Below are positions 570 to 23,980 of a DNA stretch of 57,072 nucleotides, piece by piece. Both the position numbers and the translations under genes were made by a program. Numbering within the stretch: position 1 is the stretch's first letter; every line of letters begins with the position of its first letter. Under the pieces are notes generated by a model. It worked only from the letters and a program-made list of their open reading frames with translations. It did not search any database and was not told the DNA's origin. The DNA lies in contig CAMDEF010000022.1 of assembly GCA_945895265.1 (NCBI GenBank), positions 1 to 57,072 on the forward strand, in the 5' to 3' direction. This DNA comes from Bordetella parapertussis (lineage in GTDB: Bacteria; Pseudomonadota; Gammaproteobacteria; Burkholderiales; Burkholderiaceae_B).

Positions 570-595
570 AGCAGACAACCGAAGCTACTGAACAC

Positions 596-1414: not shown

Positions 1415-1599
1415 AAGAGTTTATTCCTGTGAGGTTCGAAGACTCATGCCGCGAAGATTGGTCTCAATTTTTGAGAAGATCAACAACGGAGTTGCGGTTA
1501 AACACTTGGACTAGTTTACGTCGTAAGTCCCAGACTTTGTCGGTATTCTAAGGGACTAAGTGATCCAAGGGATATCTTGATTCGTTTTTCGTTGTACCA

Positions 1600-3894: not shown

Positions 3895-4352
3895 ATTCAG
3901 AACTAGAGTCTATATATAGTCAGCCCATATTAGAACAAAACGATTGCATTCTGACCGTGGTAGTCAGTTCTCAAGCTATGAATGGCAAGGATTCTTGAAA
4001 GAGCACAACTGAGTCGTTAGCCCTAATAAAAACAAGCACTTACAAGAAGTGTGAAACTTTTGTGTAAGTAAAAGATCGTTATAAATCAAATGATTAGTCT
4101 ATAAAAACTACTACCACTCAATAGTTACTCACCCACGCGGATACACGACGAGCTGATGCTCAATCAGCGTGTGTGTTGTTACGTTGCGTTTTGTCGTCGC
4201 CATAGCTCGCAGTTCCGTGTGTTCAACAGCTGAAACTCGTTACAAAATAACAGTAACTCAGCGTAACTGGTGTGCAAGCTGTGTGCAAGTTGGATTTGAC
4301 AAGAAAAAAAGACTTGTTTTTTACGCAAGTCTTTGTTTCTAATACAAAATAC
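3895..4352. other. Intergenic stretch with direct repeats and a terminator
   Basis: No gene is supported here. Two direct copies of GTGTGCAAG at 4270-4278 and 4281-4289, 11 bases apart (one helical turn), lie about 65-80 bases from the tRNA 3' half. That is the geometry of integrase arm-type binding sites and may be a relic of the older element. The terminator at 4303-4334 is listed separately. The remainder is A+T-rich upstream sequence of the oxidase gene. Confidence 0.4.
4303..4334 (-). terminator. Rho-independent terminator downstream of the original tRNA(CAU)
   Basis: On the minus strand AAAGACTTG pairs with CAAGTCTTT across a 9-base A-rich loop, and a run of T follows. It lies 19 bases beyond the CCA end of the tRNA 3' half at 4353, so it was presumably the transcription end of the intact host tRNA gene before the element split it. 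Confidence 0.75.
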
Positions 4353-4396
4353 TGGTGCCCCCCCGTGAGTCGAACACGGCACCAACGGATTATGAG
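4353..4396 (-). repeat. 3' half of the disrupted host tRNA(CAU), element right junction (att core 4388-4396)
   Basis: On the minus strand this encodes CTCATAATCC, the variable loop, T-arm, acceptor strand GGGGGGC, A and CCA. GGGGGGC pairs perfectly over 7 bp with GCCCCCC of the 5' half at 18998-19040, so the two pieces once formed one intact, intronless tRNA with anticodon CAU. The only sequence shared by the two junctions is the 9-base core CTCATAATC (4388-4396 and 18998-19006), inside the anticodon loop and adjoining stem. Precise recombination between the cores would restore the gene. Confidence 0.9.
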
Positions 4397-4452
4397 ACGA
4401 TGTACTTAAAAAAAACCCAGTGTTTATGCGGGTTGCAGCGTGGTTTTTAAAC

Positions 4453-4474
4453 TTGTAGAAGCTTTTGTAGAAGC
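4453..4474 (+). repeat. Tandem TGTAGAAGC repeats, putative integrase arm-type sites (right end)
   Basis: TTGTAGAAGC occurs twice with a 12-base period (4453-4462 and 4465-4474), about 57 bases inside the core. The same nonamer pair occurs in the same orientation inside the other end of the element at 18903-18922. Paired repeats at both ends of an element, near the cores, are typical arm-type binding sites of tyrosine integrases. Confidence 0.6.
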
Positions 4475-4624
4475 AAAGCATCAATTTTTAATTGCTGCAG
4501 CATTACTTAAGTAATGCTCTTGAGGCTCTGTATTTTAGCTATGCCAGCCATGCAAACTCATATGGTACGGCAAAGTGTAATACAAAGGTTAAAACTCGGC
4601 GATTATGAATCGTTTGATGGAGTT

Positions 4625-4993
4625 TCAGTACTCACTTGTCAACATGCCTACCCACACCTCACCATTCCAGCAAGCGTACAAGCTGAGCTGGTCCAATGGA
4701 AAGTCCGTGTAGTCTAGTCCTTGCCAAGCAAGCACCACACCATTCCCATCTTCAATTTTAACGATGCCGCCTTCACCTTTGCGTGCGAACTTAAGGATAG
4801 TGAACGGGTTTTCGTTGAAATCTACGTCTACTAAATGCAAGCCGTACAGCTGTGCAAGCCAGTAGCACTCCGCAGCTTCTATCAAGTACTTTAAGCCATC
4901 TGTCAGAACGAATGATGGTAGCAAGCGGTAGTAATTCTCAGTGCCAATGAATTGGCTGAGATTGCTAAGCAGTTCAGTTTTGGACAGCTTCAT
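4625..4993 (-). CDS. DUF6876-like element accessory protein
   Basis: A 122-aa protein that I believe belongs to the DUF6876 type found on plasmids and integrative elements: an N-terminal FIGTENYYR segment, then LTDGLKYLIEAAECYWL (about residues 31-47), a central beta-rich part and a C-terminal ACWNGEVWVGM. No catalytic motif is visible and the function is unknown. Its ATG overlaps the stop of the preceding small gene by 4 bases (ATGA), and it is the last gene of a short minus-strand run (5651 to 4625), suggesting co-transcription with the two genes upstream. Confidence 0.6.
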   Translation of the reverse strand: MKLSKTELLSNLSQFIGTENYYRLLPSFVLTDGLKYLIEAAECYWLAQLYGLHLVDVDFNENPFTILKFARKGEGGIVKIEDGNGVVLAWQGLDYTDFPLDQLSLYACWNGEVWVGMLTSEY

Positions 4994-5148
4994 ATGGGTT
5001 TGGCAGCAACTTTGGCTAACGACTGCTGCGCCTTCTGCATCTTTAAGCGCAAAGCCGCTTCCTTCGCTCGTTTTTGAGCTGTTTTTGCTTGCAGCTTGAG
5101 CATGTTCACTTGCTGTGTAGCACCGTCTACAACTTCTTTTATACGCAT
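4990..5148 (-). CDS. Small basic, Lys/Gln/Ala-rich protein (52 aa)
   Basis: The frame is open further upstream, but the ATG at 5148 is preceded by AGGAGA seven bases away, which decides the start (MRIKEVVDG...). The product is 52 aa, predicted helical and strongly basic (KTAQKRAKEAALRLKMQKAQ), possibly nucleic-acid binding or a coiled coil. I do not recognise a family. It lies between the DUF6641-like gene (65-base gap) and the DUF6876-like gene (4-base overlap), so it is probably part of the same operon. Confidence 0.5.
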   Translation of the reverse strand: MRIKEVVDGATQQVNMLKLQAKTAQKRAKEAALRLKMQKAQQSLAKVAAKPI

Positions 5149-5213
5149 TCTGTTTCTCCTGCTGTATTTATGAATGTGTGTGCTGGCGCTTGAAACGTCA
5201 GCACACCAATTCA

Positions 5214-5651
5214 TCACTTGGTAAAGCCTTCGCGCAACTTGACGCTCACAGCTTCAATCTGTGCGTCAAGCTCGCCATCAAGTACAGCGGCATTTACTGC
5301 TTCAAGTGCCTCAATCAGTGCATCAGGGCTCGAGACTTCAATGGCAGTCTTACCTTTGGCAAGCTCAATCAGCTTTGCGCCATACCTAATAGCGATACAA
5401 CACTTACCGTTCTCAGATACAAACCACCAAGGCTTGATGCGCTTAGGTACAGCAACAGACACACGTTCACCGTCTGCATTTGTCAGCATCTTTTGTTTTG
5501 TTGGGGAATAGTTCTCACCCTTGCTTTGAGCACGTGCGAGTTGAATTTGCTCATGCACTTTGCTGCTCAACTTATGGCGACGTTGAACGATTGGTGGTTG
5601 ATGGATTGGTTTCTTAGCTGCTACTAGCTTGAGAGATGCAAGAGTTGCCAT
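5214..5651 (-). CDS. DUF6641-like element protein
   Basis: A 145-aa protein starting MATLASLKLVAAKKP and containing RRHKLSSKVHEQIQLA (about residues 24-39), VPKRIKPWWF and CIAIRYGAKLIELAKGKTAIEV (about 84-105). This layout is what I recall for DUF6641 proteins, common on proteobacterial plasmids and integrative elements, function unknown. AAAGGA lies well placed before the ATG at 5651. It is the first gene of a three-gene minus-strand run (with the 52-aa and DUF6876-like genes) and is divergent from the gene at 5788. Confidence 0.65.
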   Translation of the reverse strand: MATLASLKLVAAKKPIHQPPIVQRRHKLSSKVHEQIQLARAQSKGENYSPTKQKMLTNADGERVSVAVPKRIKPWWFVSENGKCCIAIRYGAKLIELAKGKTAIEVSSPDALIEALEAVNAAVLDGELDAQIEAVSVKLREGFTK

Positions 5652-5787
5652 TTGTGTTTCCTTTCAAAGTAATGTTGGAAACACAAATTTATTGTCGCTA
5701 CCTATACAGGACAACCAAAAAGATATGGACTGAATTGAACAGGTCTAAAAATTTCAGCTATTCATATCAGTGGAGCTAAATAAACAT

Positions 5788-6306
5788 ATGCAAAGACAGA
5801 ACGACAACCGCTTAGATAACTTGATTGCACTACCTCACAGCATGAATGTGCAATGGGTAGCGGTTGGTCATACACACATGCATACCTGCAACAAGACAGA
5901 GGCTCAAATAAACGCAATGCTCGTAGAAACACAAAAAACAGGTAGATTTTTTTCACGCAAGTTTGTTCAATTTTTTAACGGGCGAAAAGGCTTAGCAAAC
6001 AGCGCACACCCAAACAACCCTCTAATCATCAGTCATTTACATACAGGCAAACTAAACAACTCCAGCAGCACCATTCACTATCACTTTGCCTTTGGCAACA
6101 TACATGCGGATATAACAGAACAAGACATGATGACTGTGTTTACAGAACTATGGATAGACAAGGCAAATCAATCAGCAAAGAGCATATGGCTTCAAAAGGC
6201 TAACGACAACAATAAAGGCTGGATCACATACGGTCATCGCGAAAATCGAATTGGCACACACCTAGGCTTAGACATTCACTCAACTTTTATTCCCGCACAG
6301 GCGTAG
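5788..6306 (+). CDS. Hypothetical protein with HUH-like H-Y-H motif (possible Rep-related)
   Basis: 172 aa from the ATG at 5788, with a GGAG about 12 bases upstream; a GTG at 5770 in frame is an alternative start. It contains an N-terminal QWVAVGHTHMHTC segment, a basic middle (RFFSRKFVQFFNGRKG) and then TIHYHFAFGNI followed by FTELWIDKA and a GWITYGHRENRIGTH end. An H-hydrophobic-H pair followed by W...GW..Y elements recalls small rolling-circle/HUH replication proteins of elements, but no tyrosine nuclease helix is certain. The family call is a guess. It is divergent from the DUF6641-like gene. Confidence 0.4.
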   Translation: MQRQNDNRLDNLIALPHSMNVQWVAVGHTHMHTCNKTEAQINAMLVETQKTGRFFSRKFVQFFNGRKGLANSAHPNNPLIISHLHTGKLNNSSSTIHYHFAFGNIHADITEQDMMTVFTELWIDKANQSAKSIWLQKANDNNKGWITYGHRENRIGTHLGLDIHSTFIPAQA

Positions 6307-6483
6307 GCAAGTTAGAGCCTTTGCTCACTTGCTATTGCAATCAAGCTGCTTAGAAACAAGCAGTAATAGCATTGCTTTGTCTAAAAAACGAATGAAAGTG
6401 TGCGAAGCAATGTGAAAGAGTAAGCGACAGAACATTGCAGAAGCACAGCGAACAAGGGTTCGCTCACACAATGTAAATACAAG

Positions 6484-6651
6484 ATGTTCAAAACTCAATA
6501 CAAGACACGTAGCCCCTATGAAACATGGAACACATTAGGCATTTACAACAGTGAAGCAAACGCAATATCTAACGCATTACTAAAAAAGAAACGTGGCGCT
6601 TTAATAGTACGTGTTGTGGATAAACTTGGCGCTGTCTTGTACGTGAACTAG
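6484..6651 (+). CDS. Small element protein (55 aa)
   Basis: An ATG-initiated frame of 55 codons (MFKTQYKTRSPYETWNTLG..., ending RVVDKLGAVLYVN). The alternation of an aromatic-rich N-terminus, a central helix with EANAISNALLKKKRG and a C-terminal beta strand looks like a genuine compact fold. Similar short proteins accompany plasmid and integrative-element genes, as far as I recall; function unknown. Its stop codon overlaps the stop of the convergent 428-aa gene (6648-6651). No strong ribosome binding site is visible. Confidence 0.45.
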   Translation: MFKTQYKTRSPYETWNTLGIYNSEANAISNALLKKKRGALIVRVVDKLGAVLYVN

Positions 6652-7934
6652 CTTCGAGTGCGCCAGAACACTTTTTCTCGTATACCTTGCCATAACTCAC
6701 TGAACATAACGACATCATCAGTTCGTTTGTAATAGTTAGGCAGCAGTTCTTGAAAAAACATTTCAGGCTTGTCTGTATGGGACTCATTCAAAACCTTGTA
6801 GCCATCTTGCCATCCATCAGGAGCGTTAGATGTAATAGATAAGGAATGGAATGAATCTGCATAGCCTGAGAAGAACAAGTGTTGCTCTTGCAATATCTGG
6901 GGTTCTTTGCAGACCTCAACAATAGTACGCATCTTGTACACATATGCGATTGAATTTTCGTGATGCAACACATACCGCATGAAATCCAAGTGCTTACTGG
7001 GGTCAAGCTCTAGTCTTGAAAAATCAATAATGAATTGGCGACCATCCCGATTAACACCAGTAAACATTTTCGGCATTACGCTTTCTTTGTCGAGGAAGAC
7101 CCCAAACCAGTTCGAAAATTCCTGTATCAACACGCCACTAAAGTCATCTGGTGGAACAAAGGCTGTGCTTGTATGAATAACTTTCAAACCCTTGTAGCTA
7201 ACCTCTAGCCCCTCTCCACGAAATAAAGGTATGTAATTTCCGATTTCCTTCGCAGCAGGGTCGAAAGGGTCATTAGTGTTTGCGGCACTGACAGCGGCAA
7301 AATGCCCCACTTTGCCAATGGATGAACATTGCTCAGCGATACTTGCTACATTGTTAGGCAAAGCGGCTTCACGCTCAGGCCACCGTGCGGCACGTACGAC
7401 AATCCATTCGGGGCCAGTGTCGCCAACAAACCATATGCTAGGGTCAATGCTTGGATTGCTTTGCCAAGACATGATTTCCTTGCCATCCTTTTTTAAACTA
7501 TCCCGCACAACTTGAACGGCGAAGTCTTGCAACTCCCAATCAGTCATCACTATTTTTTCGTCTGTGATTAGCGCAACAGGGTCAACAGGTTTTTCAGTAC
7601 GTGCATCAAGCAAGCCCCAGCTTGGAATAACGCACTCCCAATCATCACCTTTGCGCTTCATGTACATCAGACATGCATGTCCGTTGCAGCCGTCAGCAAC
7701 AGAAAGCAAGCCTTCAATCGTTCCAGGAGGCAGCACCTCTTTGTCAATGTCTTCAACACGCACAAAGAACAATTGATTACCAAGACGAAATGAGAAATGC
7801 TCTAAGAATGGTGGGGTGAGAGAGGCTTTTAACCAATTAAGTGCACCTTGCCCTTGTGCTTGCAAGTGTGCCCCTGCTGCATTCCAACAGAATCCAAAGC
7901 CGTTGCTGAACTCAGCCATATGAATTTTGTGCAT
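6648..7934 (-). CDS. Unknown 428-aa protein downstream of hsdR
   Basis: I do not recognise this family. The protein is soluble, with no signal peptide or membrane segment, aromatic-rich, with an SVADGCNGHACLMYMKRKGDDWECV stretch near residues 88-112 and several beta-rich segments (GPEWIVVRAARWPERE; FSGVLIQEFSNWFGVFLD). No nuclease, helicase, kinase or methylase motif is evident. It follows hsdR on the same strand with a gap of about 75 bases, so it may be co-transcribed with the RM operon and act in restriction control, immunity or element biology. An alternative start is the Met at residue 6 (MAEFSNG). Confidence 0.55.
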   Translation of the reverse strand: MHKIHMAEFSNGFGFCWNAAGAHLQAQGQGALNWLKASLTPPFLEHFSFRLGNQLFFVRVEDIDKEVLPPGTIEGLLSVADGCNGHACLMYMKRKGDDWECVIPSWGLLDARTEKPVDPVALITDEKIVMTDWELQDFAVQVVRDSLKKDGKEIMSWQSNPSIDPSIWFVGDTGPEWIVVRAARWPEREAALPNNVASIAEQCSSIGKVGHFAAVSAANTNDPFDPAAKEIGNYIPLFRGEGLEVSYKGLKVIHTSTAFVPPDDFSGVLIQEFSNWFGVFLDKESVMPKMFTGVNRDGRQFIIDFSRLELDPSKHLDFMRYVLHHENSIAYVYKMRTIVEVCKEPQILQEQHLFFSGYADSFHSLSITSNAPDGWQDGYKVLNESHTDKPEMFFQELLPNYYKRTDDVVMFSELWQGIREKVFWRTRS

Positions 7935-8009
7935 AAATTAGCCTAACTCAACCATAACCTTCACAAAGACTTTGTAGGCAGATACTGAACAACGTCTTCA
8001 TTTAACAAA

Positions 8010-11000
8010 TTAGCTCACCCAGCTAGAACTCAATGCTTCAGCTTGCTGCAATACAGTTTGCACAGCTTCGTCTTGCATGTCTGGTGGATAACCATATTTC
8101 TTCAAGATGCGTTTCACTAGCACTCGCAAACGAGCACGGGCATTTTGTCTATGCGCCCAATCAACTGACACATTTGCTTTCAAGCTCTCAAGCACCTCAT
8201 GCGCTATCAACTTGAGCTTGTCATTGCCCATCAACTCAACTGCGCTGTTATTCTCAGCAAGTGCGTCATAGAAGGCTATCTCGTCATCGCTCAGACCACT
8301 AGCCTCGCCACGCTCTCTTGCTGTACGAATGTCTTTGGCTAGCTGTATGAGTTCCTGCAACACTTCAGCAGTTGTAATTGCGTTAGCGTGATACCTTGCC
8401 ACAGCGTCCTCAAGGCGCTTAGTAAATGCCTTAGTTTCAACAACGTTTGTTTTGCTACGTGAACGAATGCCATCATTGAGCAACTTTTTGAGTGCCTCAA
8501 GGGCTAGGTTCTTGCGCTCCATCTGCTGCAACTCAGCCAAGAAGCCCTCACTCAAAATAGAAATGTCTGGGCTTTTCAGTCCTGTTGCCGCTAATATGTC
8601 CACAATCTCGGTAGATATGACAGCGCGGCTGACTAGCTGCTGTATTGCCAAGTCCTTGTCCTGCTGCTGCGAACCAGTGCCAGCTGCACTCTTAACTAAA
8701 GCTGCACGAATAGCTTGAAAGAAGCCAACCTCTTCTCGGATTTCACGGGCAGCATCACTGGCACCTACAAGGCTATAAGCCTTTGACAATATCAAAACAG
8801 CATCTTGATATCTGCGATGTGCTTGCTTCTTTTTTTCATCAGTCTTTTCCTGTGCAGCCAGCTTTTGCTGCATATCCAACACCCACTCTATCGCACTAGC
8901 CATCATCATCATGCGTTCTTGAGCAGTGCCATTCAAAGCTGATAGATAGTTAAAGCCATGGTACATGTCCCGCACTACTTCATATTTCTCAAGCAAGACT
9001 GAAATAGCTTGGCTTTCATCAATACCAGTCTTATCTCTATCACCTGGACTATAAATTTGTAGGGCTGACTTAAGGTTTTGGGCAATGCCAATGTAGTCAA
9101 CAATTAAACCGCCCTCTTTGTCTTTAAATACGCGATTGACGCGGGCGATAGCTTGCATCAATCCATGCCCTTGCATTGGCTTGTCCACATACATCGTGTG
9201 CATACAAGGAGCATCAAACCCAGTAAGCCACATGTCGCGAACGATGACTATTTTCAAAGGGTCTTTAGGATCACGTGCGCGATTAGCCAGTGTGTCGCGG
9301 CGCTGTTTATTGCCAATGTGCTCTTGCCATTCCAGTGGGTCAGTTGCAGCACCTGTCATCACAATCTTCATGGTGCCTTGCGTATCATCCTTGCTGTACC
9401 AATCGGGACGCAGCTTAGTAATCGCATCGTGCAGTTTCACGCATATTCGCCTACTCATGCAGACAATCATTGCCTTACCCGGCATAGATACCGTGCGAGC
9501 TTCAAAGTGCTTTACGATGTCAGCAGCAATCAAGTCTATGCGCTTATCGCTACCAACTAACGCTTCAACGTTTGCCCACTTACGCTTAAAACGCTCTTGC
9601 TCTGCTAAGTCGTCATCCTCAGTTAGTTCTTCAATCTCAGCGTCAATCTTTGGCTTTTCATCAGCGTCTAGTTCAATACGAGCAAGTCGTGATTCATAGT
9701 AGATAGGTACAGTGGCGCCATCTTCTACAGCACGACTAATATCGTATACATCAATGTAGTTGCCAAAAATAGTCGGCGTGTTTACATCATCTGTTTCAAT
9801 GGGGGTGCCAGTGAATCCTATGAATGATGCATTTGGTAAAGCATCGCGCAGGTACTTGGCATAGCCATAGCCAACCACTCCAGTTTTACTATCAACCTTA
9901 GCTTTGAATCCGTATTGACTACGATGCGCCTCATCAGCAATCACGACCACGTTGCGACGATCCGTGAGCACTGGATATGTACTGCTACCAGTTTCAGGGC
10001 TAAATTTTTGGATAGTTGTAAAAACTACTCCACCAGATGCACGATTGAGAATCCGTTGTAAATCTTCACGACTGCTAGCTTGCTCTGGACGCTGGCGAAT
10101 TAAATCTTGGCACATTGCGAAGGTGCCAAACAATTGATCGTCTAAGTCATTTCTATCTGTCAGCACAACCAATGTTGGATTTGCCATTTCAGGTTGACGC
10201 ACAAGTTGTCCCGCGTAAAAAGCCATCAGCAAGCTCTTCCCAGAACCCTGCGTGTGCCAAATAACCCCAGCCTTCTTATCGCCACCACCCGCTGATGCTT
10301 TAATCGTGCAAGCAACTGCATGATTGACAGCGTGGAATTGGTGATAGCCAGCAATAATTTTAGAAACACCACCTTTTGTTTCGCCAAAAACGGTGAAATC
10401 ACGGATCAATTGCAGCAAGCGGTTGTGCTCAAAAACACCTTCAACCATAGTTGCAAGCTCCGGCATGCCCTTTGCAGCAACATCTTTTCCATCTGTTGTA
10501 CGCCATGGCATGAATCGTTCAATGTCTGCGCTCAGCGAGCCAATGCGTGCGGTAATCCCATCGCCGGTAATCAACACCGCATTGGTATTGAACAACGCCG
10601 TGATTTGAGATTTGTATGTTTGCAGCTGATTGAATGCGCTCTGCATCGTCGCACTATCACTGCCGGGTGATTTCAACTCAATCACACCAACGGGCAAGCC
10701 ATTCAAAAATACTACAACGTCAGGGCGGCGGTTGTATTGCCCACTAATCACAACAAACTGATTCACTGCCAACCAGTCATTGTTAGCTGGGTTAGCAAAG
10801 TCAATCAGGTTAACTTTGCCAGCCGCAATGCTTCCATCGGTTGATTCGTACTCAACGTCCACGCCTTCAGTCAGCAGCTTGTGTATGCGACGATTTTCTT
10901 CAATCAATGTTGGGAACACTGACTGCGTGATCTGACGAATGGCATCTTCTCTTGCAGATTGCGGAAGGGTTGGATTGATGCGCTCAACAACATCTATCAA

Positions 11001-11153
11001 ACGTTGTAGCAATATGACTTGATCGTGGCTCTCCCGCTCAGCAGCAACGCCATCTGGACCAATTACATCCTCACTGGCAAGCGTGTACCCAAGGCTTGAT
11101 AGCTGCTCAATCAGCGCTTGTTCAACTGCTGCTTCGCTCAGGAATGCCATCAT
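8010..11153 (-). CDS. hsdR: Type I restriction enzyme, R (endonuclease/translocase) subunit
   Basis: A 1047-aa HsdR. The N-terminal nuclease domain holds a PD-(D/E)xK-type site ([17 protein letters not shown]). A helicase/translocase core follows with Walker [14 protein letters not shown] box [13 protein letters not shown] and motif [14 protein letters not shown], then a long helical C-terminal domain that contacts the methylase. HsdR assembles with HsdM and HsdS, translocates unmodified DNA using ATP and cuts at a distance. Length is within the usual 900-1100. Its ATG overlaps the stop of hsdS by 4 bases. All motifs look intact, so the system is probably active. Confidence 0.95.
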
Positions 11154-12499
11154 TGACCACCTTCTGTAATCAGTTTTGACAATACGCTGTTCTTTAATCT
11201 TGTAAGTTCTTGGATTTCACTCAATCCAGATCGCTGCAACATTGGTTGAACGATTTCAAAAAATCTATCTAAAACATCATCAGTTGGAACTACGACCATT
11301 TCACTTTCAAGAAAATGTTTAGTTTGAAAGTTGCTAATCCCAGTGCTCTGTACTTGGTATTCCCATGTCTTGCCCTGACGATAGATTTCATTCAAATGGC
11401 AAGCCAAAAGCAGGCCATGTTTTATCGTTCTTGGTCGGAGCCTTCTGCAAAAACTCGCTGGAACTACAGGAATATTAAATTGCCTAAGCATTGACTCGGT
11501 GAAATATAAAGACCTACCAGTCGGCTGATCTTTACTGCCACCAGACACTTCAATAATAATATCTCCCGGCTCAATTAATCGGCTAGAAATTTTTCGTGAG
11601 GTTGTATATCTAATCGGTATTTTGTTAGGAATATTGATATTCAACTCTGGTAGATCCGTGCCGCGCACAATTGCAACACGCTCCGATTCAATTGCGTTAG
11701 GTAAATCGCTCCCCCAGTCGCCGCCAATAACGTCTATTAACAAATCACCAAATTTAACTCTCGACCAACCTTTGGGAATCATCCCATATTCGTCTCTTTC
11801 AAAACTTGAAGGAAAGTCTATGCCACTGCAAAATTCATTTCTTAAGTTTTTTGAGTCAACTGTAGGATCAAAACTCACAAACCATGATTTGAAAAGAGTC
11901 GAAATTACCTTTTCAAATAGATTGTTAGTCTCTCTGAGTATGGAAATTTTTTTATCTAGAACCAATAAAGGAAATGAGGCAGATCGCTGCTCACCAATAT
12001 CAAGTAAGTACGGCTCAACATCACTTAGAAAATGGGAAGTTTGAAAATTTGTTAAGCCAGTTGATTGAACTTCATAGTTCGCAATTTCATCGGTCTGATG
12101 TAAATATGCTATTTGATAGCTTACGTATGCAGAATCAATTTTTTGTTTATCAAACCGAATCAACTTACAGAAGCTTGCAGGTATGACATTTCCGCCTAGT
12201 TTTTTTAGAATTTCATTAGTAATTAATAGCGTTCTTCCTGTGCGTTGATTGGATTTTGCACTTCCTCCAGAAACTTCAATTACTAAATCGCCCTCTTCTA
12301 AAAGCCTACTACGAACTTTGCTTGGAGACTCATACCTAATAGGCACAGTTGAAAAAATGCCAGCAGATATTTTTGGAATATCTGTTCCACGAATAATTGC
12401 AACACGCTCCGTATTTTTAATGTCTGGAGCTTCACTACCCCAACCGCCGCCAATCATATGGCTTACAAATGAATTCAGATTAGCTGATTTCATAACCAT
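11150..12499 (-). CDS. hsdS: Type I restriction-modification specificity subunit
   Basis: A 449-aa HsdS with two target recognition domains separated by a coiled-coil spacer ([20 protein letters not shown], about 178-197) and a second helical spacer at the C-terminus. The two TRDs are clearly homologous to each other: residues 15-150 and 255-400 share GG-WGS, ERVAI-RGTD, the PIRY segment, IEVSGGS, PASFC and the VQSTG-NFQT-HFL pattern. This predicts two similar half-sites, hence a nearly symmetric bipartite target. It overlaps hsdM by 20 bases and hsdR by 4. Only one hsdS is present and no inverted partial copies were seen nearby. Confidence 0.93.
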
Positions 12500-14027
12500 A
12501 TTTTGAAAAAATATTTTTAATCTGTTCGTCGAGTTGACTAGACGCCTTGTAAGTAGTGCTCAATTTTTTGGTTAAGTGGCTCATTACCACATCAAACTCG
12601 TCATCCTCATCTTCGATATCTATCGAACCTGTATAACGGGTTGGGTTAAGACAAAATGATTGCCTTTCTATTTCTTCGATTGTGGCGGAATAACAAAAAC
12701 CTGAAATATTCTTATATGCTTTGGAAAAATCAGCACCCTTCCAAGCAGCATATGTGTTGGTAATTAATTTAATGTCAGTGTCGCTAAATTCAATATTTTT
12801 CCCAATAGATGTGCCGATACGTCGTGCGTTTATGAATAAAACATTTCTTTTTCTATCTCTTGAATTTTTGGTGGCACCTTTATTTCTATTCAAAATCCAT
12901 AAACAAGCTGGGCTAGGCGTTGAGTAAAAAATTTGCCCTGGAAGTAGAACCATGCAATCAACTAGATCATCGAGCACGAGATTCTTTCGAATCAAATCTT
13001 CTCCCACTTTATTAGAAGTAGTTGATCCATTAGCAAGAACAACACCCGCAACTCCATTAGGCGCTAGATGATGAACAATGTGTTGCAACCATCCGTAATT
13101 TGCATTGCTGGCTGGTGGTATTCCGTACTTCCAGCGAACATCATCACGCAATCTTTCACCACCCCAATCACTAGTGTTGAAAGGTGGATTAGCAATGATG
13201 TAGTCAAATTTCATATCACGAAGCTCGTCTTTATGAAAACTTCCTTCGTTATTCCATCTAAGATCGCTGTCAATGCCTCGCACAGCTAAGTTCATCTTTG
13301 CTAACCGCCAAGTGATGTAATTAGATTCCTGCCCATAGATTGCGATATCACCAATTCGCCCGCCGTGCTCTTTCACAAACTTTTCACTTTGTACAAACAT
13401 ACCCCCTGAGCCGCAGCATGGGTCATACACACGTCCAGAAAACGGTTCAAGCATCTCAACAAGTGTCTGCACTACTGAGCGCGGCGTATAGAACTCGCCA
13501 CCACCTTTGCCTTCAGCACCAGCAAAGCGCCCAAGGAAGTATTCGTACACACGACCCAACACATCTTTGCTGGCATGCCCCTCAGCACTAAGGGTAATTT
13601 TAGAAATCAAGTCAATCAACTCGCCCAACATGATTTTGTTAAGCGCAGGACGAGCGTAGTCTTTTGGCAGTACACCTTTGAGACTCTCGTTGTCCTTTTC
13701 AATCAACCGCATTGCATCGTCAATCAGCGTTCCAATCGTTGGCTGCTTGGCGTTAGCTTGTAGATAGCTCCAACGAGCTTCCTTTGGCACCCAGAACACA
13801 TTGTCTGCGGCGTACTCATCCCTGTCTTCTGCTGCGCCTGCATCATCAGCCAGCAATTCTTGATGCTTTCCGTCAAAAGCATCGGAGATGTATTTGAGAA
13901 AAATCAGCCCAAGTACAACGTGCTTGTAATCGCTTGGCTCCATGTTGCCACGCAGCTTGTCTGCTGCTTTAAACAACTCAGCTTCAAAGCCAAGGTCGCC
14001 GCCATTCTTTTTGTCTACTTTAGCCAT
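12480..14027 (-). CDS. hsdM: Type I restriction-modification N6-adenine methyltransferase
   Basis: A 515-aa HsdM with an N-terminal helical HsdM_N domain (about 10-150) and a gamma-class N6-adenine methylase core. The SAM motif is DPCCGSGGMF (202-211) and the catalytic motif is NPPF (280-283). EFYTPRSVV, conserved in the family, is at about 178-186. It methylates the bipartite sites chosen by HsdS and forms the M2S core complex. It is the first enzyme gene of the operon, 11 bases after the small RHH gene. Lower GC than rpoD agrees with acquisition by transfer. Confidence 0.95.
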   Translation of the reverse strand: MAKVDKKNGGDLGFEAELFKAADKLRGNMEPSDYKHVVLGLIFLKYISDAFDGKHQELLADDAGAAEDRDEYAADNVFWVPKEARWSYLQANAKQPTIGTLIDDAMRLIEKDNESLKGVLPKDYARPALNKIMLGELIDLISKITLSAEGHASKDVLGRVYEYFLGRFAGAEGKGGGEFYTPRSVVQTLVEMLEPFSGRVYDPCCGSGGMFVQSEKFVKEHGGRIGDIAIYGQESNYITWRLAKMNLAVRGIDSDLRWNNEGSFHKDELRDMKFDYIIANPPFNTSDWGGERLRDDVRWKYGIPPASNANYGWLQHIVHHLAPNGVAGVVLANGSTTSNKVGEDLIRKNLVLDDLVDCMVLLPGQIFYSTPSPACLWILNRNKGATKNSRDRKRNVLFINARRIGTSIGKNIEFSDTDIKLITNTYAAWKGADFSKAYKNISGFCYSATIEEIERQSFCLNPTRYTGSIDIEDEDDEFDVVMSHLTKKLSTTYKASSQLDEQIKNIFSKYGYEIS

Positions 14028-14038
14028 GTCTATATGCC

Positions 14039-14242
14039 TTACGCTGCTGCTTTTCTACTTGCACTTCCAGAAAGTACCTGCTTGGTTGATTTCTTCATGT
14101 TCTGCTGAACATATTCACGCATGAACGACCTAAGAACTTGTGCTGCAGGCGTATGTGCGTCTCGGCACGTTTGGATGAAGGCATCCTTGAGTTCTGGCTC
14201 AATTCGTATACGCATTCCAGCATCTTTCATATCTCCACCCAT
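14039..14242 (-). CDS. Ribbon-helix-helix (RelB/DinJ-like) small protein upstream of hsdM
   Basis: A 67-aa protein with MRIRIEPELKDAFIQTCRD (about residues 10-28), AAQVLRSFMREYV and a basic tail. This beta strand followed by two helices is typical of RHH antitoxin/regulator proteins of the RelB/DinJ type. No toxin gene is adjacent; instead hsdM follows 11 bases later, so it may repress the RM operon, which would fit the need to control hsd expression on entry to a new host. The start is uncertain: ATG at 14242 has no clear Shine-Dalgarno, and inner Mets at residues 5 and 10 are alternatives. Confidence 0.6.
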   Translation of the reverse strand: MGGDMKDAGMRIRIEPELKDAFIQTCRDAHTPAAQVLRSFMREYVQQNMKKSTKQVLSGSASRKAAA

Positions 14243-14671
14243 ATGTAATCACAATGTGTATCCATCACTCTAACACGTGATACACATTTCATATAGTTTT
14301 CATAGGAATTTTGTTTTTCTGGGTGTCTGCGTATAGCAAGGGGTAGGTTAGAAATCACCACCTCAAAAGCGTAAGTACTCCCCAGCAACTTTTTGCGCAG
14401 CTGATTTTTTTTGACTACAACCCTTTTTTCAGTGCAAGTCAACAGCTTTAAAAGCCCAACAAGCAGCGCAAAGCTCAACCCAGCAGCCTAAGCCAGTCCA
14501 AAGCACTCAAAACGCTTGCAGGGCTTGCTAGCAAGTCAGCCCATTTTCGTGGCACTTTAGCCACGACTTTGGGCTAAATAGCACTGAGCATAAATTACAC
14601 AAAACATGCGCAGTCCTGCTAAGTCATTGAAATCATTGAGATCAATTTAGGGGCAAATAGAGGTAGGAATT
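14243..14671. promoter_or_regulatory. Intergenic region with dyad-symmetric sites between the RM operon and the short recombinase
   Basis: Divergent control region without a supported gene. It holds a perfect 12-base palindrome CTTGCTAGCAAG (14524-14535) immediately followed by a longer interrupted dyad (14538-14575: AGCCC, then CGTGGC-6 nt-GCCACG, then GGGCT). These could be operators for the RHH protein or recombination sites for the recombinase that starts at 14672. The spacing of about 100 bases to that gene fits either idea. No promoter could be assigned with confidence. Confidence 0.4.
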
Positions 14672-15298
14672 TTGAAGATACGAAAACATACTAATAGCAC
14701 TTTTTCCACAACAGCAAAGAGAGTGCAAATGACTAAACAAGCAAAAACACTAAACGAGCGCGAGCTGCAACGCTTATTGGACTTTGTTAAAACCACAAAA
14801 AGTGCAGCACGTAATCGCGCAATCATCCTTCTTACGCATTTAGCAGGCATGAGGATCGGAGAGGTTTCCGCTGTGCGTGTCTGTGATGTGCTTGCAAGCG
14901 ATGGAACTGTTCGCGAGGAGATTAATTTAAGCGCAGCCCAAACAAAGGGCAATAAAAGTCGCAGCGTTTTGCTTAATGAGCGGATGCAAACGGAACTTGC
15001 TACATACATCCGCACAGTGCGTATACGCGATGCAAAACAAGCATTGTTTGCAACACAGCGCAGCGCAGCGTTTACATCCAACTCACTTACGCAAGTTGTA
15101 AACGGAATTTACAAACATGCTGGCTTTGATGGCGCAAGCAGTCATAGCGGACGCAGAGGGTTTTTGACTAACTTAGCGGAGAAAGGTGTAAGTGTGCGAG
15201 TAATGATGGCACTTGCTGGCCATCGCAATATGGCAACTACGCAGCGGTATATCGACCTGCGTCCAGGTGTGCTTCGTAATGCAGTGGAGCTAGTATAA
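14672..15298 (+). CDS. Short tyrosine recombinase (catalytic domain only)
   Basis: A 208-aa protein made almost only of the tyrosine-recombinase catalytic domain, with all active-site residues present (numbered from the TTG start at 14672): R61 in GMRIGE, K92, H158-xx-R161 in HSGRRG, H184 in LAGHRN and Y193 in TQRYID. The usual N-terminal core-binding domain is missing. An ATG at 14730 with AGAG upstream is an alternative start. Such compact recombinases act as resolvases or DNA invertases or help other integrases. It is the only plus-strand gene between the hsd operon and the unknown genes at 15.3-16.9 kb. Confidence 0.8.
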   Translation: MKIRKHTNSTFSTTAKRVQMTKQAKTLNERELQRLLDFVKTTKSAARNRAIILLTHLAGMRIGEVSAVRVCDVLASDGTVREEINLSAAQTKGNKSRSVLLNERMQTELATYIRTVRIRDAKQALFATQRSAAFTSNSLTQVVNGIYKHAGFDGASSHSGRRGFLTNLAEKGVSVRVMMALAGHRNMATTQRYIDLRPGVLRNAVELV

Positions 15299-15306
15299 AA
15301 AATGAT

Positions 15307-15762
15307 CTATGATTTTTTTAATGAGCCGAAAATTTGGTGGCTTTTCATTTTAGTTGTAAGCCTTTCCCAAACATAGCTTTTACTGAATGCAGAATCAAAC
15401 TCAAAATTTAATTTATTTTTCTTAAAAATAGTCTTGCCAATGTCTATCATATACGACAGATGTAGCTTCAACTCCTCGTCCGTGATTTCAATATAAAAAC
15501 TAAAAACTGGTTGTAGATCATTGTCAAGCCTTAACCCGTCGACAAAAATATACAAATCCTCTTCCTGAAGCGTTATGTTTATTTCAGCACACGCTTCATT
15601 AGCGGTTTGAATAATGTCTTGGAAACTAGCCTCTTCAGCAGGGACATATATCAGGCGGTTTATTAATTTGGCAATAGCTTCTGGCGCGTTAGAAAATTTT
15701 ACTAGCCTTGATCGTAAAAAAATTGTTAACTCATTAAGAAAGATTTTTTCATTCGCACTCAT
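15307..15762 (-). CDS. Hypothetical protein (151 aa)
   Basis: I do not recognise this protein. It is A+T-rich in coding sequence, soluble, with a helical N-terminal third (ANEKIFLNELTIFLRSRL), an acidic/hydrophobic centre (EEDLYIFVDGLRLDND) and a basic C-terminus (KMKSHQIFGSLKKS). It lies convergent with the short recombinase, the two stops 8 bases apart, and 63 bases downstream of a 48-codon gene on the same strand, with which it may be co-transcribed. Confidence 0.5.
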   Translation of the reverse strand: MSANEKIFLNELTIFLRSRLVKFSNAPEAIAKLINRLIYVPAEEASFQDIIQTANEACAEINITLQEEDLYIFVDGLRLDNDLQPVFSFYIEITDEELKLHLSYMIDIGKTIFKKNKLNFEFDSAFSKSYVWERLTTKMKSHQIFGSLKKS

Positions 15763-15825
15763 TTAAGTTCCCATCGAATTAAAAATATTTAAAATCGTCC
15801 ACGTACTCATTTCTAATTTTTCTCT

Positions 15826-15972
15826 TCATTCCAGCGATAACAATCTGTCCGCGCACAGGCCAATCGAGGTAAAAAAACCAATCACTCTTTCACGATCAAA
15901 TCCAAGATGCACCAATCGATCAACAAATAGCCTTGTTGACTGAGGTAATCCTAGATTGTCAGATTCGTTCAC
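15826..15972 (-). CDS. Small hypothetical protein (48 aa)
   Basis: A GTG-initiated frame of 48 codons with a good AGGAG seven bases upstream of the start. The product (MNESDNLGLPQST..., ending CADRLLSLE) is predicted mostly helical, with a repeated hydrophobic pattern (LFVDRLVHLGFDRERVIGFF). I do not recognise it. The ribosome binding site, stop placement and position in a same-strand run with 15307-15762 argue that it is real. Confidence 0.45.
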   Translation of the reverse strand: MNESDNLGLPQSTRLFVDRLVHLGFDRERVIGFFTSIGLCADRLLSLE

Positions 15973-16113
15973 GAGCTGCTCCTAGGGGAAAAAACGTCAT
16001 TCCTTCGATTTATCACCATTAACGAAGAGTCATTCGACTTTTTGATGATTTGTTTATTTCAAACACATCGATTCTTTAAATAGCTTGCTCCTTGCATTTG
16101 TACTTTCACTCGT

Positions 16114-16890
16114 TCAGTAATCGCCTGTGTTTAGCTCCCCACGCTCACATTGAGGGAAAAATACTTTTATCATCTTCATTGCTTCATCTTCATCAGCTTG
16201 ATATTCTCGGTATTTCTCCAAAAACTCATTGATTTGATCTGTGGTGTATCCCTCATCTTCACCCTCAATGTAATGAAGCCCATCTCTCGTATTTTCTTCT
16301 TCTAGGGCAAATGCAACTAAATCATCATTTCCAGGAAGATGATCGCACTCATACATCGCGATACTTAAATCATACAGAGCATGAATCAAATCGCTCACAG
16401 ATTCATACACATCACTTTCTAGAAACTGATCCATGTATTCACTGTCATCTGCAATCCCATTGAGGTTGAAAGCATTTATATGGTTGCCTGTTTCAGCATC
16501 AATAATAAATAGTCTATTTTTGCGGCCAAAACCTACACATAACATTTGCTTTGTATATAAATTAAGCAAAAGGAAATCTGGTGAGTGATATTGTTCAAAA
16601 AATTTTTGAACTGGCGGATAGACAGCTTTTAATTTTTCACGAATGTCTTTTTTATACTCATCTACAAATATAAAAAGCAAGTGATTTTTAGGCTTAGCTT
16701 CTGCCTCTAAATCGCTCTCCGTTTCCTCAATCATTTCAAATCCGCCTCTGAGAAAAGGTGCCGATGGATCATCTTCATAGGTTGGCTGACGATCAAAAAA
16801 TTCCTCTGAGTAAACATCAACTAAATCCCCAGATTCTTTCAATTCATTCAGCAAACTCATTGCTTGTGGTGTACCTTTTGTGATTTTCAT
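16114..16890 (-). CDS. Hypothetical acidic protein (258 aa)
   Basis: I do not recognise this protein. It is unusually acidic: by my count about 57 Asp/Glu among 258 residues against far fewer Lys/Arg. Acidic clusters lie near residues 38-65 and 195-240. The middle (residues about 70-135: HLLFIFVDEY..., LLLNLYTKQMLCVGFGRKNRLFIIDAETG) looks like a folded beta-rich domain. No signal peptide or membrane helix is seen. The family could be immunity/SMI1-like or a DNA mimic, but nothing in the sequence proves either. It lies between the integrase and the small gene pair. Confidence 0.5.
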   Translation of the reverse strand: MKITKGTPQAMSLLNELKESGDLVDVYSEEFFDRQPTYEDDPSAPFLRGGFEMIEETESDLEAEAKPKNHLLFIFVDEYKKDIREKLKAVYPPVQKFFEQYHSPDFLLLNLYTKQMLCVGFGRKNRLFIIDAETGNHINAFNLNGIADDSEYMDQFLESDVYESVSDLIHALYDLSIAMYECDHLPGNDDLVAFALEEENTRDGLHYIEGEDEGYTTDQINEFLEKYREYQADEDEAMKMIKVFFPQCERGELNTGDY

Positions 16891-17013
16891 TGATCAATTT
16901 CCCATGTTGATTTCATTAATTCTGAAGTTTTATTTTCGAAGGCAACGAAAAAAATGACTAATACAAAACGCTGGTAGCTGTCTTTTTTCATCGCGGTTTT
17001 TTGGATTCATTTA

Positions 17014-18420
17014 TCAGCTTTTTTTCGTAGCTGCTAGCTTTTTTTTATTTGATTGGTGTGCATCTGGCACAACTATTTCTTTAAACAATTGTTGACGAGC
17101 ATTTGGTGCTTTTAGCTTGTGCTTTATTTGCTTCAATGTGCCACGGTCATAGCGCTTCATTAGCATTTCCGGAGAGTTGCCCAATGCTTTTGCTAAGTCG
17201 CGCATGTCTACATCGTCATAGTCCATAACCGCTGTGCTGAATAAACTGCGAAAGCTATAGAACACACGCTTTTTACTTGTGTTTTTGTCGTACAGCAATC
17301 CATATTCTTCCAAAAAGTTTTGAAACATATGCAATGCACTTGGGATTCTTTTCCCATCTTTAGTTTCAAAAATCTTGTCATCACTTGATTGCGTAATCAA
17401 TGCCTTGAGCTTGTTGCCTTCTAAGTCTTTATATCTTCGGTCAGCAATTTCTTTTAATACTCTAAAAGTCTTTTCATAGCCAACCGCATGTCGCGAACCT
17501 TCTTTTCCAGATACGAATAGTGTAATTATTGGAGTCCAAGTGGTATTGGGTATTGGATTACCCTCCTCATCATATGGTCCGTCGCTAAGCTCAATGTATT
17601 CCCGCTCGTAATCACGTGCATTTTCTTTTGCATCTTTGTCTTCAATGTAGTCAACACCATATGTTTCGTGTTGAATTTCAAACTCTATGTTTTTCCATTG
17701 CAGATCTAAAAGTTCTTTGCCGGGTCTTGCACCAGTATCAATTAACACTCTTGTGTAGTCGTAAAGAACTTGCCGTTGAGCCTTGTGATGCTCACGTCCA
17801 TTAGCGATCCATTCGGGCATTTTCGCTAATATGATGTTTGTTTCATTCACAGTAAACGTTGCGTAGTTTTCGCTCTTTTCGCCCTTAGTCTCGAGATACG
17901 GAACGTTTAGCTTAGAAATGTAATTACGTACAACAGCCTCGTTAAACACCATGTTCAAAACAACATTGTGTTTGCGAACTGTGCTGTACATTGGCACCTT
18001 ACCCATTTTCTGAGCTCGCCATGACCCATAGTCTTCTATCGTTTTATGGGTTATGTTGTTAATGTGCATCTTGCCAAAGTACGGGATGAGGTAATCGTTA
18101 GCAATCCGCTTGTACTGCTGAAACGATTTGACTGTATGTCCGGCAGCGATACGCTCTTCCATCGAACGAATCACTATGTTGGCAACATCGCTGAAACGCT
18201 TAGATAAAACTGGCAGGTTTTGCTCTTTCAGCACTTGCGCTTTTACGAGAATTTGATTGGCAGCTTTTTTAGCTTTTTTCAAATCTAATTCTTTGGTGGT
18301 TGCAGTGATCCATCTGCCATCAATCTTGTAGCGGCAGTACCAAGCAGCAGTTGTTGGACGCTTAAACAAGACTAGCTCGCGGTCTATTAGCTGATGGGTG
18401 TCATCACGTTTTTCTGGCAT
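17014..18420 (-). CDS. int: Tyrosine integrase of the element
   Basis: A 468-aa site-specific recombinase with an N-terminal arm-binding region (1-75), a core-binding SAM-like domain (about 75-185) and a catalytic domain. Catalytic residues seen are R232 (GARPG), K306 (SGKEG), Y388-S-F-R391 in place of the usual HxxR, N415 in LGNS in place of the usual H/W, and nucleophile Y424 (MKRYDR). These variants occur in a known integrase subgroup, so activity is plausible. The gene lies about 100 bases inside the element's replacement tRNA and about 580 bases from the core, as expected for the enzyme that put the element into the tRNA anticodon loop. Confidence 0.9.
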   Translation of the reverse strand: MPEKRDDTHQLIDRELVLFKRPTTAAWYCRYKIDGRWITATTKELDLKKAKKAANQILVKAQVLKEQNLPVLSKRFSDVANIVIRSMEERIAAGHTVKSFQQYKRIANDYLIPYFGKMHINNITHKTIEDYGSWRAQKMGKVPMYSTVRKHNVVLNMVFNEAVVRNYISKLNVPYLETKGEKSENYATFTVNETNIILAKMPEWIANGREHHKAQRQVLYDYTRVLIDTGARPGKELLDLQWKNIEFEIQHETYGVDYIEDKDAKENARDYEREYIELSDGPYDEEGNPIPNTTWTPIITLFVSGKEGSRHAVGYEKTFRVLKEIADRRYKDLEGNKLKALITQSSDDKIFETKDGKRIPSALHMFQNFLEEYGLLYDKNTSKKRVFYSFRSLFSTAVMDYDDVDMRDLAKALGNSPEMLMKRYDRGTLKQIKHKLKAPNARQQLFKEIVVPDAHQSNKKKLAATKKS

Positions 18421-18479
18421 ACAGCTACTTTAATGTCTAGCCGCTGCAAGAGCAACGGATTTTGCAGAAGCTGCAAACG

Positions 18480-18516
18480 AAAAAGGGCTGCGCACTTTAA
18501 ATGCGCAACCCTTTTT
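18480..18516 (-). terminator. Bidirectional rho-independent terminator after the element tRNA
   Basis: On the minus strand GGGTTGCGCA pairs with TGCGCAGCCC over a 7-base loop (TTTAAAG) and is followed by five T; the A-run on the other side makes it work both ways. It sits 8 bases past the CCA end of the intron-containing tRNA, giving that tRNA its own transcription unit and insulating the integrase gene. Confidence 0.85.
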
Positions 18517-18523
18517 CTTTTTG

Positions 18524-18854
18524 TGGTGGGCCCCCCGTGAGTCGAACACGGCACCAACGGATTATGCTTACCACTTCAGTTTTCACTGCCCGTTTCCGGT
18601 TTGTGGTCTGGACTGTCTCTTGTCTTTACGACCTACCCGTACAGTCTCTACACCTTCCAACCTACAAATTGCAAGTTGGTTTGGCTCGGGATTACCACGC
18701 TGCTAGCAGCACAGGCTTCCCCGAATTTGAGTAGTTCTACATGTAAGCAGAGTGAACTTACTTACGTGCAACCCAATTGCAGTCAACCATTGCTTTCGCC
18801 TTAGGTTGCCTACCTTTAAGTCCGCTGCTCTAACCAAGCATGAGCTAGGGGCCC
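18524..18854 (-). tRNA. tRNA with CAU anticodon (Ile2 or Met), split by a group I intron, carried by the element
   Basis: Exon 1 (18854-18819, 36 nt) begins GGGCCCC-TA-GCTC and ends GCGGACT; exon 2 (18566-18524, 43 nt) begins CATAATCCGT and ends GGGGCCC-A-CCA. Joined, they give a 79-nt tRNA with all four stems perfectly paired, loop CTCATAA and encoded CCA. It matches the split host tRNA (18998-19040 plus 4353-4396) everywhere except acceptor pairs 2:71 and 3:70, which differ by compensatory changes. The form of the acceptor stem and the Azoarcus precedent favour tRNA-Ile2 (lysidine-modified); elongator Met is possible. It has its own promoter region (TATAAT at 18925) and terminator. Confidence 0.92.
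18567..18818 (-). ncRNA. Group I self-splicing intron (252 nt) between tRNA positions 33 and 34
   Basis: The insert starts after U33 of the exon and ends in G before C34, the U...G boundary rule of group I introns. Core elements on the minus strand: P-like CAAATTCGGGGAAGCC (18714-18729), Q GGTAATCCCGAGCCAA (18681-18696), R GGTGTAGAGACTGTACGG (18637-18654) and an S-type segment GACAGTCCAGACCACA within 18596-18626. GACUGU of R pairs with ACAGUC of S over 6 bp, forming P7. R and S resemble those of the small Azoarcus tRNA-Ile(CAU) intron. P1 is short (exon ACU with intron GGU). No endonuclease gene fits inside. Confidence 0.9.
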
Positions 18855-18902
18855 TTAAAACGTATTTTCACCGCTTTTTTACCTTAAAAGCGCAAGGCAT
18901 TT

Positions 18903-18922
18903 TGTAGAAGCGGTGTAGAAGC
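18903..18922 (+). repeat. Tandem TGTAGAAGC repeats, putative integrase arm-type sites (left end)
   Basis: TGTAGAAGC occurs at 18903-18911 and 18914-18922, an 11-base period, about 75-95 bases inside the core at 18998. It matches the pair at 4453-4474 in sequence and orientation. It lies just downstream of the TATAAT box of the element tRNA, in the predicted transcription start and leader, so integrase bound here could affect tRNA expression. Confidence 0.6.
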
Positions 18923-18924
18923 AA

Positions 18925-18930
18925 ATTATA
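18925..18930 (-). promoter_or_regulatory. Candidate -10 box for the element-borne tRNA
   Basis: A perfect TATAAT on the minus strand about 70 bases upstream of the tRNA 5' end. No consensus -35 is evident at 16-18 bases (AACTTA or CAACTT are the nearest). The region between the core and the tRNA contains no gene, so the tRNA promoter is expected here. Confidence 0.5.
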
Positions 18931-18997
18931 CTAGCCTAAACCTCTTTAAGTTGTTGATTTATAACGATATTTTAAGAATCGATATCTTAGTTTATTA

Positions 18998-19040
18998 GAT
19001 TATGAGTCCGCTGCTCTAACCAAGCATGAGCTAGGGGGGC
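18998..19040 (-). repeat. 5' half of the disrupted host tRNA(CAU), element left junction (att core 18998-19006)
   Basis: On the minus strand this gives GCCCCCC-TA-GCTC, the D-loop, GAGC, A, GCGGA, CTCATAATC and then element DNA (TAATAAAC...). It lacks the T-arm and 3' acceptor strand; these lie at 4353-4396 with the exactly complementary acceptor strand GGGGGGC. It begins 14 bases after the rpoD stop codon, so the original tRNA probably shared the rpoD transcript, which now ends in a half tRNA. Confidence 0.9.
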
Positions 19041-19053
19041 TAACTTTTAGGCT

Positions 19054-23974: not shown

Positions 23975-23980
23975 CACAGA

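Follow-up and report, generated by a model that had tools for sequence, protein, structure and literature searches.

An integrative element of Bordetella parapertussis splits tRNA-Ile2(CAU) and carries an intron-bearing replacement that is likely hidden from its own integrase

We analyzed a 57,072-nt stretch of Bordetella parapertussis DNA (contig CAMDEF010000022.1; hereafter the window, meaning the whole stretch) in which the host tRNA-Ile2(CAU) gene downstream of rpoD is interrupted by inserted DNA. The reading that we favor, and hold to be moderately probable, is that an integrative element splits this gene at the anticodon loop and carries a replacement tRNA interrupted by a group I intron, which is predicted to splice and likely conceals this spare gene from the integrase that the element encodes. 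Replacement of the destroyed tRNA by an element-borne copy appears near certain and is well supported at the sequence level by an empty site in the nearest genome (G001) and by related elements. Shielding by the intron is likely for the intron type found in the window (intron A, between CT and CATAA of the loop) and at best partial for a second type (intron B, between CTCAT and AA).

In the mechanism that we propose, the integrase would recombine the element's attachment site (attP) with the 7-bp anticodon loop CTCATAA, the recombining arms, judging from the junctions, likely corresponding to the anticodon stem. Unlike that of the usual tRNA islands, attP does not supply the 3' half, and the target is lost. 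A spare copy situated approximately 150–225 bp inside the left end would then take over. The intron divides the 7-bp site, which would reduce re-integration, although leakily for intron B, and the cell would come to depend on the element, whose copy would then be the only whole gene, as relatives support.

The split host gene and the spare copy

The two halves of the host gene, at 18998–19040 and 4353–4396, have the sequence CTCATAATC in common. In G001, alignment places a contiguous, intronless tRNA-Ile2(CAU) after rpoD: window positions 18998–24000 align to positions 7515–2560 of G001 locus L035 at 92%, positions 421–569 align to 7656–7507 of the same locus at 95%, covering the intact tRNA's 3' portion together with its flank, and the two blocks join in a 9-base overlap. 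Because G001 has the same tRNA uninterrupted, the split is not due to chance, and because the gene is whole there, with flanks meeting in nine shared bases, 570–18997 represents inserted DNA. These comparisons bear out the initial annotation, made from the window alone, which held that a host tRNA(CAU) had been split and named an empty-site relative with an intact intronless tRNA after rpoD as something to look for. The limits that it gave for the element (4353..19040) did not survive; a second displaced 3' half at 526–569 extends the insert to 570–18997, divides it into two modules and rules out a single insertion. Nor do the acceptor strands pair perfectly, as had been claimed: the acceptor run counts 7 G in each displaced 3' half versus 8 in G001, and although ARAGORN still calls a tRNA from the rejoined halves, one acceptor base remains unpaired. 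Elsewhere in G001, on a contig without rpoD (C93), locus L104 contains a decayed tRNA-Ile2 3' half (10645–10682) with the core CTCATAA, likely a trace of another insertion.

That the intron-bearing tRNA is instead a native gene, with the halves left over from an unrelated decayed duplication, is very improbable. The 3' halves are indeed decayed, one G having been lost and one core having changed to CTCATCA, but this account is contradicted by G001, where the gene is contiguous and undamaged between both of its flanks, and by the recurrence of the same layout in other genomes.

ARAGORN labels the gene Met(cat), and reading CAU as Ile2 involves lysidine recognition. We assigned the split and spare genes to Ile2, given that in relatives elongator Met is encoded by a different tRNA gene, which begins with GGCG and has the loop ATCATAA (loci L054 and L187); elongator Met tRNA was thus rejected as the target on sequence.

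The left junction consists of CTCATAATC followed directly by TAATAAAC, and the sequence past the core is not tRNA, so that attP does not restore the target as it does in tRNA-restoring islands. Neither insert junction contains a complete tRNA, which indicates that the tRNA is not rebuilt, and the common core is short (9 bp in the window and 7 bp across relatives). Both properties are found in tRNA-dependent lysogeny, in which, according to the accessible part of the report on mycobacteriophages (Guerrero-Bustamante and Hatfull 2024, PMC10865867), a destroyed tRNA is replaced by an element-borne one.

A complete spare gene lies inside the element at 18524–18854 (minus strand). Its joined exons form a tRNA(CAU) in which every stem is paired, matching the split gene in isotype, as tRNA-dependent lysogeny entails. 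The exons had been described as otherwise identical to the host tRNA; the identity as tRNA(CAU) holds, but the acceptor stem differs (GGGCCCC/GGGGCCC). The intron interrupts the gene between CT and CATAATC, as first annotated, beginning TAAAG after the CT and ending AAG before the CAT; it is preceded by U, and its last base is G. The window intron thus follows CT and intron B follows CAT, the latter also being the position of the intron in Azoarcus tRNA-Ile.

The assignment to group I likewise stood. The window intron matches RF00028 over the full model length (27.6 bits, E = 5.7e-5) without reaching the Rfam gathering score of 50, which is passed by none of 13 A-type loci and by all seven B-type loci examined. 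At the gathering threshold no Rfam family was found in the window, and ARAGORN called no tRNA when the window was scanned. In an alignment of 19 of the 23 A-type introns extracted, 37 of 77 predicted pairs show compensatory changes on both sides, consistent with a conserved group I core. A search of G001 with RF00028, a model insensitive to the A type, returned no match, and the exact intron pattern gave none in the viral_contigs collection. With the intron lying inside the 7-bp site, CTCATAA is absent from the spare gene as DNA, where the closest sites differ at 2 of 7 bases, but present in the joined exons.

Related elements and the attachment core

Tyrosine-integrase elements carrying intron-bearing tRNA(CAU) genes, for which the initial annotation had suggested a search, were found in other genomes: the arrangement of split 5' half, intron tRNA and integrase recurs in a metagenome-assembled genome (G270, SXWY01000040), in G526, in G311, and in the second element of Limnohabitans sp. 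Jir61 (G269), with which Jir61's first element lies in tandem. The integrases of Jir61 and G311 are 71% identical to that of the window, and the same short recombinase accompanies them at about 80%. The G270 integrase is 96% identical over its first 75 residues, after which the contig ends; its left end lies behind a split tRNA-Ile2, and on another contig of this genome a partial DUF6876 gene lies next to a 3' half that has no intron. G526 combines an integrase of 45% identity with a split half and an intron tRNA.

Using an alignment of five integrases (A1) as query against overlapping genome samples, we found matches in 5/268 genomes of G001's family, situated at tRNA-Leu or tRNA-Asn sites as judged by eye, and in 14/399 genomes of the order, 2/160 of family f31, 37/151 of genus g73 and 3/26 of f17. 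In the viral_contigs collection, none of 96 pattern matches was a relative, and plasmids yielded 3 weak matches. Some integrase relatives restore their target (tRNA-Leu, Asn, Lys, Met and one Ile2, in G337; isotypes by eye). In other cases tRNA-Ile2 is split and the element supplies a spare copy, which may have intron A, intron B, no intron but an altered anticodon stem (G909, G449, G942 and G508), or no intron and no alteration; copies of this last kind are intact in G929 and have been hit by another element in G869 and G892. Several further matches (e.g., L167, L171, L173 and L174) showed no spare tRNA in the stretch read.

In a 38-row integrase tree, intron bearers fall in two separated clades, and within one group of integrases that are 96–99% identical, elements with intron B occur next to one with intron A (G820) and one without an intron (G929). 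In the tree of A introns, the window, G270, G526, Jir61/G311 and G820 lie close together; L062 and L003, where no split half was seen, are their neighbors, and G192 is separate. Because these groupings are weakly supported and G192 stands apart, the number of intron captures is unsure.

Two loci deserve separate mention. In G396 (L102, 2587–3088) a split tRNA-Ile2 is followed by a spare tRNA whose intron, at the CT/CATAA position, has a diverged P7; no integrase of the window-integrase family was found in the 12 kb read, beginning at the end of the contig. In G192 (L034, 4787–6673) two old tRNA-Ile2 halves, separated by 1.8 kb, flank an intron tRNA with other exon sequence, a remnant that would be expected were loss of the spare copy impossible; open reading frames past the 3' half look by eye like recombinase fragments, and the 20 kb read contains no integrase of this family.

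Comparison of left ends defined the core. After CTCATAA the elements diverge, continuing with TCTAATAAAC in the window and G270, CCTATTTAAC in Jir61 and G311, TCTATTAAAA in the second Jir61 element, AGGACCTGC in G526, and GAAAGAAGCC, GAGAGATAAC and others elsewhere. The constant core across related elements is thus 7 bp, CTCATAA, the entire anticodon loop, and a 9-bp core is ruled out by the variable bases that follow it. The nine bases first reported as shared with the target are present in the window, but only seven are constant across relatives; the two further bases agree by chance or ancestry.

Host dependence, shielding and competing explanations

Genus g73 provided the largest set of intron-bearing copies, with 66 full-length intron-B matches in 47/151 genomes. 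All 44 distinct intron-B loci read with at least 300 nt of upstream sequence (43 in 34 g73 genomes and one in Jir61, with two more having too little sequence; L227, with a T in the exon, was counted as intron B) have CTCATAA 154–223 nt upstream, following a split tRNA in 29 and another element's end in 15. Location behind the attachment core at 44/44 loci implies that these introns move with the element. Arrays of such elements run from rpoD through a split half, an intron tRNA and an integrase to an intronless 3' half, for example in G300 (about 33 kb), G845, G801 and G826.

This distribution bears on an improbable alternative, in which the intron itself is mobile, element-borne tRNAs serve as vectors to host tRNA-Ile2 genes, and the link with the integrase is secondary. 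Homing of this kind would fit the patchy occurrence of related introns (18/399 genomes, 14 genera), and attP has been suggested to act as an intron vector in archaea (Sugahara and colleagues 2012, as cited in PMC8371274), but the 252-nt intron is too short for an endonuclease gene, and the 44 intron-B loci point to movement with the element.

In these relatives, genome counts support the view that the cell relies on the spare copy. A contiguous intronless anticodon-arm pattern, with one mismatch allowed, matches 77/151 g73 genomes; the pattern would miss an altered-stem intronless gene. Among the 117 good genomes of the 151 (completeness at least 90%, contamination at most 5%), 40/45 with a full-length intron copy are without the pattern, whereas of those without an intron copy 57/72 have it and in 15/72 none was found (Fisher 1.6e-13, kinship uncorrected). 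Across all 151 genomes, 42/47 intron bearers are without the pattern and 72/104 others have it. The initial annotation had suggested that, if the host has no other Ile2 tRNA, the cell depends on the element unless it excises precisely; the counts favor dependence in relatives, the window's own genome lying outside them. In G903 (L243, contig C10:350570–353571) an intact intronless tRNA-Ile2 with a host-type terminator follows rpoD, and an intron copy lies 2.7 kb downstream behind an element-end junction. Seven genomes (G652, G853, G850, G907, G830, G878 and G837) match only the last 110–130 nt of the B-intron query, comprising the intron end and 3' exon, and these may be either truncated relics or diverged introns.

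Several observations speak for shielding. Spare copies are mostly altered at the target, by an intron at CT/CATAA, an intron at CTCAT/AA or a changed anticodon stem. None of the eight A-intron copies on elements or remnants (window, G270, G526, G820, G192, G396, Jir61 and G311) has been hit, in searches that favor intact copies, and neither has any of four altered-stem copies. Element-type intronless copies were hit in two clear cases (G869 and G892). Seven further displaced intronless 3' halves (G300, G877, two in G939, G858, G920 and G837) have terminators that elsewhere follow element-borne copies, and those in G874, G845, G826 and G652 have host terminators. Element-type rather than host-type terminators on displaced intronless halves at L230, L237, L249, L253, L255 and L264 suggest that spare copies are themselves targets or that halves have recombined.

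Others weigh against the favored reading. B-intron tRNAs have been hit at seven g73 loci, beside the 66 full-length matches, with five distinct junctions (G842, G873 and G838 have one in common, and that of G858 is unlike an element end), which indicates that CTCATAG is tolerated. One B-position intron tRNA is also displaced behind the Jir61 elements, with CTCATAA followed by AATTTG, where the last core A may derive from the intron or from attP. These hits exclude absolute immunity, and strict immunity for intron B is ruled out by the displaced 3' parts of intron-bearing tRNAs. Additionally, G929 keeps an intact, unaltered intronless spare copy; clear unaltered copies number only three (two hit, one intact); and a fourth hit copy, in G311, which may or may not have an intron, is visible in its 5' part only. 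Clear unaltered copies were hit in 2/3 cases versus 7/85 for all other kinds (Fisher 0.027, descriptive only), but the hit rates do not allow a fair comparison because intact intronless element-type copies are uncounted across the genus. RF00028 scores A types below its cut-off. Finally, at 16 A-type intron tRNA-Ile2 loci the preceding 420 nt are free of any split half, which implies that the intron can persist for other reasons. Self-immunity through the intron, the central idea of the initial annotation, thus remains plausible for intron A and fails as a strict rule for intron B. The same intron tRNA occurs without an element only in other lineages; within G001's family the window-type intron is present in 2/268 genomes (G066 and G192).

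These observations could instead be explained if the replacement tRNA was captured from a host that already had the intron, with the intron riding along as a neutral, selfish sequence that shields nothing, which we consider unlikely though a serious competitor. Such hitchhiking is consistent with the hits on intron-B tRNAs and with the 16 A-type loci, where rpoD is present in the fetched stretch of 11 and a window-type integrase in none, and group I introns in beta-proteobacterial tRNAs are known (PMC4033280, from the portion available). Against it, a contiguous intronless gene is present in 77/151 g73 genomes, yet the element copies read are mostly intron-bearing; two intron types occupy two loop positions and have been exchanged between near-identical elements; and of the five intact element copies read that have no intron, four show an altered stem. 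More broadly than shielding in the window, we tentatively suggest, short of considering it probable, that integrative elements have repeatedly recruited a self-splicing intron within the 7-bp overlap as an immunity device, such that the spare tRNA is invisible to the integrase as DNA and whole as RNA, an essential gene is destroyed and replaced, and the host is bound, with altered anticodon stems as a second, intron-free solution in sister elements.

Gene content, known systems and significance

The insert comprises an outer module (570–4396) and an inner module (4397–18997), the latter holding the integrase and the spare tRNA (Table 1). The outer-module end resembles the ends of related elements, with GTTGTCTGCT before the core (compare L160), and the older DNA at 570–4352, bounded by the two displaced 3' halves, suggests that elements have accumulated in tandem at the tRNA. 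The 208-aa recombinase contains little beyond the catalytic domain, recurs in both Jir61 elements (80% and 51%) as well as in G311, and possibly acts in excision or resolution. Nine element proteins compared with PHROGs (the Hsd proteins and a 428-aa protein being left out) gave integrases and unknowns and no structural gene, unlike a temperate phage, and the integrase had no match among 50,697 phage records.

Table 1. Coordinates of the split tRNA gene, the spare copy and other features of the insertion in the window.
Feature	Coordinates	Strand	Evidence and remarks
Host tRNA-Ile2(CAU), 5' half	18998..19040	-	Same bases as the intact G001 tRNA after rpoD; ends in attachment core CTCATAATC (18998-19006)
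Displaced 3' half no. 2, attR of the intron-tRNA element	4353..4396	-	Core 4388-4396; one acceptor G short
Displaced 3' half no. 1	526..569	-	Core altered to CTCATCA; joined to host flank; end of older inserted module
Whole insertion relative to G001	570..18997		18,428 bp; alignment with G001
Spare tRNA-Ile2(CAU), 5' exon	18819..18854	-	36 nt; ARAGORN on joined exons
Group I intron	18567..18818	-	252 nt, between CT and CATAA in anticodon loop; RF00028 27.6 bits; covariation in 19 homologues
Spare tRNA, 3' exon with encoded CCA	18524..18566	-	43 nt; ARAGORN on joined exons
Terminator-like hairpin and T run after spare tRNA	18473..18516	-	Sequence; hairpin aligned in intron model search
Tyrosine integrase, 468 aa	17014..18420	-	PF14659, phrog_1; relatives beside split tRNA-Ile2
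Second short tyrosine recombinase, 208 aa	14672..15298	+	PF00589; conserved in three related elements
HsdM	12480..14027	-	PF02384, PADLOC MTase_I
HsdS	11150..12499	-	PADLOC Specificity_I; no Pfam match at 0.001
HsdR	8010..11153	-	PADLOC REase_I, PF04313
DUF6641 protein	5214..5651	-	Also in two Jir61 elements
DUF6876 protein	4625..4993	-	Adjoins attR; also in G270 (partial) and one Jir61 element
Older module without recognised integrase	570..4352		YkuD-like gene below Pfam cut-off; FAD-binding oxidoreductase
Host rpoD	19054..21840	-	Upstream of target tRNA; translation, named by eye; co-linear with G001

Replacement of a tRNA, islands that restore their target and group I introns in tRNAs are each known; an intron-bearing replacement tRNA in an integrative element was not found described in the open-access literature searched, as represented by titles and the beginnings of abstracts. 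The closest system is tRNA-dependent lysogeny (PMC10865867), which, in the part of that text available, likewise involves a tyrosine integrase, a core of about 10 bp in a tRNA gene, a target that is not rebuilt and a carried tRNA of the same isotype. There the carried tRNA is required, whereas here dependence is supported in relatives only and from sequence comparison, and the elements are actinobacteriophages with tRNA-Lys as the tested case, in contrast to an element with a restriction system, no phage gene found and an intron-split tRNA-Ile2. The word intron occurs only once in that article, in its reference list. Replacement of a destroyed tRNA has also been noted for Sinorhizobium prophages (PMC11476347, in the portion consulted). 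With the usual tRNA genomic islands (Islander, PMC4383910, in the sections available) the element shares a tyrosine integrase, a tRNA target, the anticodon-loop crossover class and a displaced 3' fragment, but the attP of those islands contains a tRNA gene fragment that restores the gene, whereas this attP does not. The word intron is absent from the accessible text of a survey of Methylophilaceae islands (PMC10872708).

Group I introns occur in tRNA-Ile of beta-proteobacteria such as Azoarcus (PMC3984707, PMC4033280); as in the window, this is a small intron near the anticodon, but in the accessible parts of these sources it is not described as part of an integrative element. Randau and Soll proposed that introns and splits in tRNA genes protect against integration (as cited in the portions available of PMC4390854 and PMC4033280). 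Our reading shares with that proposal the notion that interrupting a tRNA gene guards it from integrating elements; it differs in that the archaeal host protects itself there, whereas here a mobile element would protect its own spare copy.

The finding links three usually separate subjects, namely how integrases choose their sites, the replacement of tRNAs and the introns of bacterial tRNA genes, and offers a possible selective reason for the persistence of group I introns in bacterial tRNA anticodon loops. The old shield proposal becomes directly assayable with natural variants, including two intron positions, altered stems and unaltered controls. It also suggests how a mobile element could become indispensable, by carrying the sole whole copy of a tRNA gene. 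If our reading is correct, a ribozyme recruited as an immunity device would let an element destroy an essential gene, replace it and thereby bind its host.

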